Positions 60,407 to 63,605 of a stretch of 64,000 nucleotides of DNA are shown here, one piece after another. How positions within the stretch are numbered: position 1 is the stretch's first letter; the number at the start of each line of letters is the position of its first letter. The notes under the pieces were generated by a model. The model searched no databases, was not told the origin of the DNA, and worked only from the letters and a program-made list of their open reading frames with translations. This DNA is from Bryobacteraceae bacterium. Lineage in GTDB: Bacteria; Acidobacteriota; Terriglobia; Bryobacterales; Bryobacteraceae. The DNA lies in the NCBI GenBank assembly GCA_025056455.1, contig JANWVY010000013.1, positions 26,089 to 90,088 on the forward strand, given 5' to 3'. A program made the position numbers and the translations under genes.

Positions 60407-61093
60407 CTAGCGAGAGCCGGAGCCCAACAGGCGCCGGATAGCGGCCTCGAGTTGTTCCGGCCGGAATCCAGCTGGACCCGGATCTCCCTTGAAAGCCACT
60501 CGCCCTTCCAAATCGATCAAATACAGGCGGTCTGGCCAGGCAGAGTAGGCCTGCTCGACCCGGTTGTCAAGCTCGTCGATCAAGGTAGGAAAACGGATAT
60601 CCAACTTGCGAACGCACTGCGTTGCGTTCTCTTGCTTTTGTTCCAAGGTTTTTGCCGATGCGAGCAGAACTCCATCGCGAAGATTGGCTTGAATCTGCCA
60701 GCCGTCCGTGGGATGCGCCTCGCGAATGTAAATTAGCAGAAATTGTACATAGTCCTGATAGGCCGTAGCCATGGCATTTAGCTTCCCTACCTGGGAGCGG
60801 AAAGGCGGTCACGTGTAGCTTCCGAAGACGAGCGCTACCAGTTTCTTCCCGCGAAAGGAGGAAAAGGCAATTCGCTTTTCCGAACTGAGATGCTTGAGTT
60901 GGAAATCAGGCGCCAGATCACCCGGCAGAAGCTTGCCCGGCCCATGGCCATGTTTCTTCATCTCCAACAAGGCGCGCGGGGGCAGGGAGCGCTCCCGGTC
61001 GGAAGCAGCAGGCTTAGGATCAGGCGGCTGATCTTGCGCCAGCGCCACCGTGGCAAGAGCACAAACTGGAAACCACAGTGAAACTCGCCGCAT
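60407..61093 (-). CDS. Deiodinase-family selenoprotein with in-frame UGA (selenocysteine 95)
   Basis: One frame of 228 sense codons plus a TGA at 60811-60809. Ordinary translation yields two fragments, 60809-61093 and 60407-60772; reading through TGA joins them as KLVALVFGSYT-U-PPFRSQVGKLNAMA. Iodothyronine deiodinases carry FGS(C/A)TUPPF at this point, and YIREAHPTDGW downstream matches their (I/V)YIEEAHxSDGW motif. The N-terminus MRRVSLWFPVCALATVALAQ is a signal peptide, followed by a peroxiredoxin-like opening PGDLAPDFQL. It is thus probably an exported thioredoxin-fold selenoenzyme, likely a peroxidase or reductive dehalogenase. A UGA-proximal hairpin supports recoding. A TGC/TGT-to-TGA mutation or sequencing error is the alternative. 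An earlier ATG at 61120/61123 is possible. Confidence 0.82.
60774..60808 (-). promoter_or_regulatory. Candidate bacterial SECIS hairpin directly after the UGA
   Basis: In the mRNA, GCUCCC-(AGGUA)-GGGA(A)GC folds into a six-base-pair stem with one bulged A and a five-base apical loop. It extends outward through UUU/AAA and CG/CG pairs after small internal loops. The loop G residues are 18 and 19 bases past the UGA; in E. coli fdhF, as I recall it, the equivalent GG is at 19-20. A short loop starting with G in its first two positions, 16-37 bases from the UGA, is the known bacterial SECIS rule. Confidence 0.7.
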
Positions 61094-61606
61094 ACGCCTT
61101 GGTTTCTCCTTTCCGCTCATCATAACGCTTGTCGGGAGGAAGAATCGAAAAAAAATCTGCAAACGATTAACGATTTTTGCGGTGATTTTACGCGTTGCTT
61201 CTCGAGGGGGGCGATGCGAGCGGGCCGGGTGTGGGCAGCCCAAACCGGGCTATCGGCCTCTAAAGAGAGGCGGCGCGGCGGCTTTTCCGAGAGCGGCGCC
61301 AATCCTCCTTTGGAAAAGACATTGAACTTCTGTTGGGCGTGTGATAGTTAAGAAACTGCGGGTTTGCTGGGACCGCGTGGGAGACTCAACAGCCGCGGCT
61401 TCTCGCTGGAGGCCAGGGAGGGGAGCTTGTACCGTAACGAAACGGCCGATTGAGTCACTACCAGTGAGTCGTTTGCGGTTGGATGAGGGGCTTCCTGGGT
61501 TAAGGGCGGCCGCAGGTTCAGGTAGAGACGCCAATATCACGAAAACAAGAAAGAAACTCGGAGGGGCAAGCCTGCAACTCCAAGGTCATTCAGCGAGGGA
61601 ATAACG
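61094..61606. other. Divergent intergenic region between selenoprotein gene and tssB
   Basis: 513 bases without a convincing gene. It must contain promoters for both directions, but I cannot assign clear -35/-10 elements. A hairpin GCCTCT-AAAG-AGAGGC lies at 61256-61271, next to a very GC-rich stretch. AGGGAATAACG precedes the tssB ATG as a weak ribosome site. Confidence 0.5.
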
Positions 61607-62134
61607 ATGGCAACGATGAGAGAAAGTGCTCAGCACAAGCTCGACCGGGTCCGTCCGCCACGCGTACACATTACCTACGACGTGGAAATCGGCGATGCGA
61701 TCGAGACGAAAGAACTTCCATTTGTTTTAGGGGTACTCGGGGACTTCACGGGCATGCCGGAGCAACCGCTGCCCCGTGTTCGTGACCGCAAATTTGTTGA
61801 AATTACTCCGGATAACTTCGACAAAGTGCTCGAAGCGATGAGCCCCCACCTAGCCTTCCAGGTGGAGAACAAGCTCAGCGAAGATCCCGATGCCGGGCAA
61901 CTGCGCGTCGATCTCCGCTTCCGCAGTATGGACGATTTTGAGCCCGAGAATGTCGCCAAGCAAGTGAAGCCTTTGCGCGAGCTGCTCGAGCTACGAACGA
62001 AGTTGTCCGATCTTCGTGGTAGCTTAATGGGCAATGATAAGCTCGAGGAGCTGCTGCTAAAGAGCGTTGCGGATCCGGAGCAACTGGCGAAATTGAAGGC
62101 GGAAATTGAGAAGGAGGGAGCGTCCCATGAGTGA
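61607..62134 (+). CDS. tssB: Type VI secretion system sheath small subunit TssB (VipA)
   Basis: A 175-residue cytoplasmic protein that pairs with TssC to build the contractile sheath. The stretch RVHITYDVEIGDAIETKELPFVLGVLGDFTG, followed by RDRKFVEITPDNFDKVLEAMSPHLAF and RFRSMDDFEPENVAKQVKPLRELLELRTKLSDLRG, is the standard TssB signature. It shares eight bases with tssC. It opens a second T6SS block about 39 kb from tssK-tssL-tssM. Confidence 0.97.
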   Translation: MATMRESAQHKLDRVRPPRVHITYDVEIGDAIETKELPFVLGVLGDFTGMPEQPLPRVRDRKFVEITPDNFDKVLEAMSPHLAFQVENKLSEDPDAGQLRVDLRFRSMDDFEPENVAKQVKPLRELLELRTKLSDLRGSLMGNDKLEELLLKSVADPEQLAKLKAEIEKEGASHE

Positions 62135-63605
62135 TGCGCAACGAGCCACCCAAACCACCGAATCGGTCGTTGAAACGAGTCTCCTCGATAAGATTGTCGA
62201 GGAAGGTCGTCTAGGCAAAGATCCGGCCTCCAAGGAGCGGGGCAAAAACCTCATCAAGTACTTCGTCAACCAGGTGCTTGAAGGGTCGATGGCGGTCTCC
62301 AAAGACGCCGAAGCGATGATCAATGCCCGGATCGCTCAGATTGACCACTTAATCTCCATCCAGCTCAATGAGATTCTCCACCACCCAGCGTTTCAAAAGC
62401 TCGAAGCCACCTGGCGCGGGGTCAAGTATCTGGTCTCGAACAGTGAGACCAGTGACATGCTGAAAATCAAGTTGTTCAACGTTTCCAAGCGCGAATTGCT
62501 GCGCGATCTGCAGCGCGCCCCGGAGTTTGATCAAAGCGCCTTATTTAAAAAGGTTTACGAGGAAGAGTTTGGCGTCTTTGGCGGCGCTCCCTTTGCCGCG
62601 CTGATTGGCGACTATGAGTTCAGCCGGCATCCGGAAGACATCGAGCTTCTGGAGCGGGTGGCGCAAGTGGCGGCCGCCGCTCACGCGCCTTTCCTCACTG
62701 CCGCCTCGCACGAGATGTTCAACCTGGACAGCTTCACCAATTTGGACGCGCCACGGGACCTCGCCAAAGTATTCGACACCACGGAATACGCCAAGTGGAA
62801 AGGGTTCCGGCAGAGCGAAGATTCCCGTTATGTGGGTCTCTGCGTGCCTCGCGTCCTGATGCGCTTGCCCTATGGCAAGAACCACAAACAGGTGGAAGCC
62901 TTCAACTACGAAGAGCACGTCGATGGTACCGACCACAGCAAGTATCTGTGGGGAAATGCGGCTTACGCCTTAGGGGCCCGGCTCACAAACTCCTTTGCTC
63001 GCTACGGCTGGTGCGCTGCGATTCGCGGCGTGGAAGGTGGAGGCTTAGTGGAAGGGCTTCCGGTGCACACCTTCTACACGGACGAAGGCGATGTGGCAAT
63101 GAAGTGTCCGACGGAGGTGCCGATTACCGACCGCCGGGAGAAAGAGCTTGCGGATCAGGGATTTATCCCGCTCGTCCATTGCAAGAATACCGATTATGCG
63201 GCTTTCTTTAGCGTACAGTCAGCCCAGAAACCGAAACTGTACGATAAAGCCTCGGCCAACGCCAACGCGCGGCTTTCCACGCAGCTGCCGTATATCTTGG
63301 CGGTCTCCCGGTTTGCGCACTATTTGAAAGCCATGATGCGGGATAAGATTGGCAGCTTCATGTCTCGCGGACAGTGCGAAGACTGGCTGAATCGCTGGAT
63401 CACGCAGTATGTTGTGCCCGACGATATGGCGGCTCCGGAAACGAAGGCCAAAAAACCCCTTCGCGAAGCGAAAATCGAAGTGGTGGAAGTTCCGGGCAAG
63501 CCAGGTGCCTATCGCGCTGTCGCGTATCTGCGCCCCCACTTCCAGCTGGACGAGTTGACCGTATCCCTGCGTCTCGTTGCGGACTTGCCGCAATCGGCAC
63601 GTTAG
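62127..63605 (+). CDS. tssC: Type VI secretion system sheath large subunit TssC (VipB)
   Basis: A 492-residue sheath protein. The start at ATG 62127 lies within the tssB end and follows AAGGAGGG by ten bases. The N-terminal helix NLIKYFVNQVLEG, HHPAFQKLEATWRGVKYLV, FGGAPFAALIGDYEFSRHPEDIELL and FVPLVHCK-like IPLVHCKNTDYAAFFSVQSAQKPK are typical. C-terminal IEVVEVPGKPGAYRAVAYLRPHFQLDELTVSLRLVADLP completes the sheath interlocking domain. Confidence 0.97.
   Translation: MSDAQRATQTTESVVETSLLDKIVEEGRLGKDPASKERGKNLIKYFVNQVLEGSMAVSKDAEAMINARIAQIDHLISIQLNEILHHPAFQKLEATWRGVKYLVSNSETSDMLKIKLFNVSKRELLRDLQRAPEFDQSALFKKVYEEEFGVFGGAPFAALIGDYEFSRHPEDIELLERVAQVAAAAHAPFLTAASHEMFNLDSFTNLDAPRDLAKVFDTTEYAKWKGFRQSEDSRYVGLCVPRVLMRLPYGKNHKQVEAFNYEEHVDGTDHSKYLWGNAAYALGARLTNSFARYGWCAAIRGVEGGGLVEGLPVHTFYTDEGDVAMKCPTEVPITDRREKELADQGFIPLVHCKNTDYAAFFSVQSAQKPKLYDKASANANARLSTQLPYILAVSRFAHYLKAMMRDKIGSFMSRGQCEDWLNRWITQYVVPDDMAAPETKAKKPLREAKIEVVEVPGKPGAYRAVAYLRPHFQLDELTVSLRLVADLPQSAR

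Follow-up and report, generated by a model that had tools for sequence, protein, structure and literature searches.

Two open reading frames (ORFs) lie one behind the other on the minus strand of a 64,000-nucleotide stretch of a Bryobacteraceae genome (Acidobacteriota; assembly GCA_025056455.1, contig JANWVY010000013.1, positions 26,089 to 90,088), hereafter the window, and the question they raise is whether they encode two hypothetical proteins or one selenoprotein of the iodothyronine deiodinase family. They are very probably a single gene, in which a UGA likely encodes selenocysteine (Sec) at the active site of a predicted-exported deiodinase-family protein acting as a selenol-based reductase, as both halves share one frame, the UGA is conserved and followed by a covarying hairpin, the Sec machinery is complete and the core is homologous to that of deiodinases.

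60407..61093, minus strand: deiodinase-like selenoprotein coding sequence, single, 228 codons and a stop, start codon provisional
60809..60811, minus strand: in-frame TGA, predicted Sec codon 95, kept in the relatives described below
61037..61093, minus strand: hydrophobic N-terminal stretch MRRVSLWFPVCALATVALA, a putative export signal read by eye from the sequence

Read from the ATG at 61093, the frame contained exactly one in-frame stop, the TGA at 60809-60811 (codon 95 of 229, stop counted), before it closed with the TAG at 60407-60409. The standard ORF list breaks the gene there, into an ORF at 60809-61243 (ending in ...FGSYT) and another at 60407-60772 (starting with MATAYQ...), and the joined translation reads FGSYT-U-PPFR at the TGA, with YIREAHPTDGW further downstream. 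An earlier sequence-only reading, which had described one in-frame TGA splitting two fragments, a joined FGSYT-U-PPF and a gene missed by ORF calling, was correct on all three counts. As alternative in-frame ATGs occur 9-10 codons upstream of 61093, the start remains provisional. Export is predicted from the hydrophobic N-terminus, and close homologues with cysteine (Cys) in place of Sec, such as P0004 and P0005, have similar N-terminal beginnings.

The joined 228-amino-acid (aa) protein matched Pfam T4_deiodinase (PF00837) with 103.8 bits (E 1.2e-29, residues 57-221; gathering cut-off 27), the family to which the sequence-only reading had assigned it, and was the only PF00837 match in the whole genome. 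As the C-terminal half also matched by itself (E 9.8e-20), the union of both halves in one gene goes beyond chance. Among solved structures, a sequence search returned mouse type III and type II iodothyronine deiodinases (DIO3 and DIO2) on top (E 2.2e-19 and 4.4e-15), the other seven matches having E values of 0.008 or worse, and the TGA codon aligned with the catalytic Sec of the mouse enzymes (Cys in the crystals). The predicted structure, a confident model, had a deiodinase-type thioredoxin fold, for which DIO2 and DIO3 ranked first in structure comparisons, ahead of peroxiredoxins. NCBIfam NF038285 (deiodinase_rel) also matched, with 197.3 bits (E 4.7e-58) over 162 residues; the model is 347 positions long, and its first 178 positions had no match in the window protein. 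Tests of sequence, RNA structure, genome content and fold together support the reading of the gene as one for a deiodinase-family (PF00837) selenoprotein.

60416..60940, minus strand: peroxiredoxin/deiodinase-fold catalytic domain, approximately residues 52-226, from the Pfam match and the predicted model

Among relatives confirmed in the collection, the best 80 of 550 were compared, and all 80 carried TGA at the same site. The search did not favour this codon, because neither of its patterns, one lying downstream of the site and the other spanning it as Cys or tryptophan (Trp) codons, contained TGA there. Seventy-nine relatives were counted by motif and one (L070, FGSYRUPPF) was read separately; their records belong to Acidobacteriota, Planctomycetota, Armatimonadota, a Gemmatimonadota, an Actinomycetota and a 'Deltaproteobacteria' metagenome-assembled genome. 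Within a phylum sample of 396 genomes, 38 had a PF00837 match, 30 of them above the cut-off; 23 of these 30 possessed one in-frame TGA in such a match and 7 did not. The TGA was placed by motif within FG(S/A)xTUPP(F/Y)R in 20 phylum loci, including the window's own, while for three genomes (G246, G234 and G218) it comes from the profile search of genomes. With 38 matching genomes in the phylum and bacterial cases described as early as 2005, such an enzyme is not very unusual in an acidobacterium, contrary to what the sequence-only reading had supposed.

At the protein level, the 120 listed database hits (of 131) comprised 38 with Cys at the Sec column, 9 with Trp (P0012, P0013, P0016, P0017, P0040, P0044, P0057, P0074 and P0081) and 73 with no residue, 61 of which begin behind the active-site column in the alignment, so that much of the family seems mis-annotated. 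Homologues with Cys or Sec at position 95, for which the sequence-only reading had proposed to look, thus occur in both forms. Since there are Cys homologues of 50-59% identity, the TGA might be taken for a sequencing error, or for a mutation that turned the gene of a Cys enzyme into a pseudogene; its presence in every compared relative, over several phyla, together with the covarying hairpin and the Sec machinery described below, makes this extremely improbable. The Trp entries could likewise suggest an alternative code in which UGA is read as Trp, yet they are likely TGA genes whose annotation applied a code assigning this codon to Trp, the adjacent tssB ends on TGA and the genome has a tRNA-Sec with anticodon tca, and we give this explanation next to no credence.

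Two loci, L040 (genome G341) and L054 (genome G285), have a frame that ends early behind the TGA, so that read-through would yield 198 and 107 aa, respectively. Decay or an assembly error is possible for L040, given its early frame break and a genome with tRNA-Sec but no selA match above the cut-off. Four genomes (G218, G234, G314 and G338) had 2-6 PF00837 matches each, with and without TGA and some close together on one contig, which may mark a local expansion within family f62.

Bacterial Sec insertion sequence (SECIS) elements are described, in the accessible part of PMC1088965, as hairpins just downstream of the UGA whose small apical loop contains a G. The gene has such a hairpin close behind its UGA, with G in a small apical loop.

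60781..60798, minus strand: predicted bacterial SECIS hairpin with six pairs, one bulged A and the apical loop AGGUA, from folding, covariation and a synonymous null

It lies 11-28 nt after the UGA, where the gene's own mRNA folds as GCUCCC-AGGUA-GGGaAGC. In one fixed register, the 20 phylum loci formed 88 of 160 possible pairs, compared to 65.5 ± 4.5 in synonymous redraws (0 of 5000 as high). Altogether 98 segments (77 distinct) were collected, 19 from the phylum and 79 from relatives, with L052 and L070 omitted by the motif used. All 98 were more stable than the mean of their 200 synonymous redraws (mean z -1.99; z < -1 in 70), and the window's own hairpin had a z of -3.16, with none of 200 synonymous recodings as stable. 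As a control, six distant Cys homologues had a mean z of +0.22 (one at -0.91). Forty of the 98 segments, namely all 19 from the phylum and 21 of the 79 from relatives picked by eye to differ from one another, were aligned without gaps. In this alignment, 73.8% of cells were paired, compared to 50.9% after shuffling, and the covariation score was 0.536 compared to 0.186 (0 of 500 shuffles as high for both); sliding the alignment by 1-3 columns reduced both values. Choosing for difference favours covariation, and the 20-locus and 98-segment tests are independent of that choice. The numbers of doubly changed pairs and of further pair types carried little signal, as 386 and 26 of 500 shuffles, respectively, reached them. 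The apical-loop positions read GGT in 83 of the 98 segments and GGC in 9, and no Rfam family matched at gathering threshold in the 64-kb window. The hairpin pattern is not accounted for by protein sequence alone.

The host assembly (4.98 Mb, 98.9% complete) encoded all of selA, selB, selC and selD, the genes to be checked for according to the sequence-only reading; a lack of selB or selC, which that reading had named as a refutation, was thus not observed. The tRNA-Sec scored 79.3 bits over 91/91 positions, and ARAGORN identified it as tRNA-SeC (anticodon tca); selB (373 bits) had an uninterrupted 634-aa frame, selA scored 501.5 bits and selD 373 bits. The selD gene (L023 1501-2424; G000:C11:786305-787228) carries a further in-frame TGA close to the N-terminus (AGUASKL), so the selenophosphate synthetase of this genome is probably itself a selenoprotein. 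Across the phylum, selA (E 1e-70 or better) was present in 21 of the 23 TGA-carrying genomes and in 251 of the whole sample of 396 (Fisher p 0.002). The two remaining TGA genomes (G341 and G314), with no selA match above the cut-off, had a tRNA-Sec (72.8 and 70.2 bits), and two genomes of the same family that lack the deiodinase-like gene had neither selA nor a tRNA-Sec above the cut-off.

The second motif singled out by the sequence-only reading as deiodinase-like, YIREAHPTDGW, also held up against the alignment.

60698..60730, minus strand: deiodinase motif YIREAHPTDGW, residues 122-132 (Tyr122, Glu125, His127 and Trp132), from alignment to deiodinases

In a residue map against DIO3, the window protein possessed the Ser-x-Thr-Sec and Tyr..Glu-x-His..Trp set and retained the EAHPxDGW loop. 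Within the family protein alignment (46 sequences, picked from those gathered), the deiodinase insertion and the EAH motif were among the most conserved parts.

Several observations weigh against reading the locus as an exported deiodinase-family selenoprotein. The selA gene is common in the phylum anyway (251/396) and was present in all seven genomes with above-cut-off matches that have no TGA; because of these seven, its co-occurrence gives weak support, and its presence does not separate TGA and non-TGA forms. Concerning the hairpin, the Cys controls are few and distant, L028 showed almost no surplus (z -0.2), the loop is placed about 4 nt further down in L033, L037 and L040, and RNAalifold found only three consensus pairs in the ungapped alignment, owing to variation in the length and register of the loop. 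Compared with other stretches of its own gene, the 45 nt following the UGA were not unusually stable (152 of 266 were at least as stable), and L028 and L029 had no such surplus within their own genes either. At the protein level, the score for NF038285 stayed below its curated cut-off of 250 bits, the columns of the proximal and distal Cys of the animal enzymes (DIO3 Cys168 and Cys239) hold Tyr93 and Phe168, and DIO3 His219, Phe258 and Arg275 are replaced by Ala147, Pro187 and Pro205. The export case comes from eye inspection of the N-terminus, and the reading as a whole, including the selenium in the protein, is a prediction from the genome and a modelled structure.

The sequence-only reading was right about the family but needs correcting on a second point: belonging to the family does not make the protein an iodothyronine deiodinase by function, as both known resolving cysteines and a number of substrate-site residues are missing. 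In DIO3, His219 is one of the substrate-site residues. Phe258 and Arg275 are further ones, Arg275 being Lys in DIO2, where the proximal Cys is Ala (PMC11592359). The distal Cys is present in DIO1-3, and the proximal one in DIO1 and DIO3. DIO3 Asp211 was not retained in the window protein. With several of these residues not kept, thyroid hormone appears an unlikely substrate.

For the predicted selenol-based reductase, SelB would bind the hairpin and tRNA-Sec would insert Sec at codon 95. Outside the cytoplasm, the Sec95 selenolate would then abstract an electrophilic atom, either a halogen or a peroxide oxygen, from a small organic compound, with Tyr122-Glu125-His127 and Ser92/Thr94 perhaps relaying a proton in the way proposed for the animal enzymes. 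Once oxidised, the selenium could return to selenol via Cys160 or an external thiol. Cys160 sits 8 residues before the distal-Cys column and is the sole cysteine once the predicted signal is removed. The residue-160 column, on the helix behind the insertion and 65 residues after Sec, holds Cys in 30 of the 46 alignment rows, a candidate resolving Cys. When the family alignment was compared with Escherichia coli Tpx by hhalign, asking whether Cys160 falls at the Tpx resolving-Cys position, only residues 53-129 aligned.

From the sequence, halogen and peroxide oxygen are not distinguishable. A peroxide or other oxidised compound seems somewhat likelier than a halogenated one, given the absence of the proximal Cys and of several residues at the substrate site. 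The protein may be viewed as a selenol peroxidase, functionally similar to a 1-Cys peroxiredoxin with Sec as the peroxidatic residue, to which we would give slightly less than an even chance; the strong conservation of the deiodinase insertion and the EAH motif argues against it, as peroxiredoxins are not known to have either. These same retained features, namely the EAHPxDGW loop and the Ser/Thr/Sec/Tyr/Glu/His/Trp set, together with nearest folds that are DIO2 and DIO3 rather than peroxiredoxins, would suit a true bacterial organohalide reductase of deiodinase type, in which Sec95 abstracts I or Br from halogenated phenolics in soil. Ala147 need not disfavour such an enzyme, since human DIO1 keeps normal activity when His174, taken here as the equivalent of His219, is Ala, according to the available part of PMC9141512. 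The changes at Phe258, Arg275, Asp211 and both cysteines speak against it, although DIO2 itself has Lys for Arg275 and Ala for the proximal Cys, and overall we regard an organohalide reductase as unlikely.

The relation to the animal enzymes was further inspected in a tree of 75 chosen rows, in which L040 was not included. The Sec label changed 11 times, 8 of these changes being forced by starred branches. The window protein belonged to a set of 12 rows (99/95), with six Sec and six Cys forms mixed, and mouse DIO2 and DIO3 fell within a 10-row, all-Sec set together with Acidobacteriota and Gemmatimonadota rows (100/95), whose bacterial members have FGS followed by C, F or Y. The rows nearest the mouse proteins were L033 and L037 (99/68). 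As joining DIO2/DIO3 to the window's clade was not rejected by the approximately unbiased test (p 0.21) and the DIO2/DIO3 branch is long (1.78), no placement is claimed for them. L033, L037 and L040 are bacterial FGSCTUPPF proteins with the proximal Cys of DIO1/DIO3. It is conceivable, and in our judgement distinctly improbable, that exported selenoenzymes of soil bacteria dehalogenate natural halogenated phenolics and that the Acidobacteriota/Gemmatimonadota branch contains the nearest kin of animal deiodinases; if so, the chemistry of thyroid hormones would have its origin in the detoxification of organohalogens by bacteria.

The neighbours of the gene on one side encode a methyltransferase of UbiE type and an M1-type peptidase that carries tetratricopeptide repeats (TPRs); on the other side lie VipA/VipB sheath genes in the opposite direction.

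61607-63605, plus strand: VipA and VipB, type VI secretion sheath, starting just upstream of the selenoprotein gene and divergent from it

The VipA stop is a TGA that overlaps the next ORF. A common neighbour gene was not evident in five relatives, for which ORFs were listed by length with starts set by eye and no family search was made, a further point against an organohalide reductase. The near copies L057 and L058 are an exception, with neighbours in common.

The deiodinase family is already known and fairly widespread in bacteria. Zhang et al. (2005) reported four Sec-containing deiodinase-like genes, as well as Cys forms, from the Sargasso Sea, and the accessible part of that paper argues for a bacterial origin, guesses at a redox role and leaves the function in bacteria open (PMC1088965). 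The Global Ocean Sampling (GOS) study lists 22 Sec deiodinase-like genes, in a table that, in the part available, gives no motif (PMC2398784), and a review, also available in part, mentions gut bacterial deiodinase-like enzymes acting on T4 (PMC12521424). A 2006 survey assigned three families and four selenoproteins to Acidobacteria, with the word deiodinase absent (PMC1794560); the word is also absent from the available part of the deep-Sep paper, which has one Acidobacteriota table row (PMC12013277). In the openly licensed literature, we found no acidobacterial deiodinase-like selenoprotein, no biochemistry of a bacterial one and no functional assay of such a protein after 2005. The window gene adds a well-supported, genome-anchored bacterial deiodinase-like selenoprotein, whose recoding hairpin is shown by covariation across many relatives, and its residue map separates the shared from the unshared parts of the animal mechanism and so guides what to assay. 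Its chief interest lies in the open function of the bacterial family combined with good recoding evidence.

Among related proteins, the peroxiredoxins Bcp and AhpE and the TlpA/ResA-like proteins had lower structural Z scores and carry their catalytic Cys at the position of the UGA; they are not known to have the deiodinase insertion. NF038285 deiodinase_rel matched over 162 residues but below its curated cut-off. Mouse DIO3 (4tr3) and DIO2 (9h48) are 23-28% identical to the window protein, which differs from them in having no Cys at the proximal and distal columns and in the changed DIO3 residues His219, Phe258, Arg275 and Asp211. The family motif is given as UxxC in the accessible parts of reviews of 2022 (PMC9312934) and 2026 (PMC13188914), whereas the window protein has UPPF. 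The closest parallel is with the Sargasso Sea and GOS proteins, which, as far as the available parts of the two papers describe them (PMC1088965, PMC2398784), share PF00837, an active-site Sec, a bacterial SECIS behind the UGA and Sec and Cys forms side by side; those come from marine metagenomes (4 and 22 Sec genes), whereas the window gene belongs to a genome that is 98.9% complete and includes the Sec machinery.
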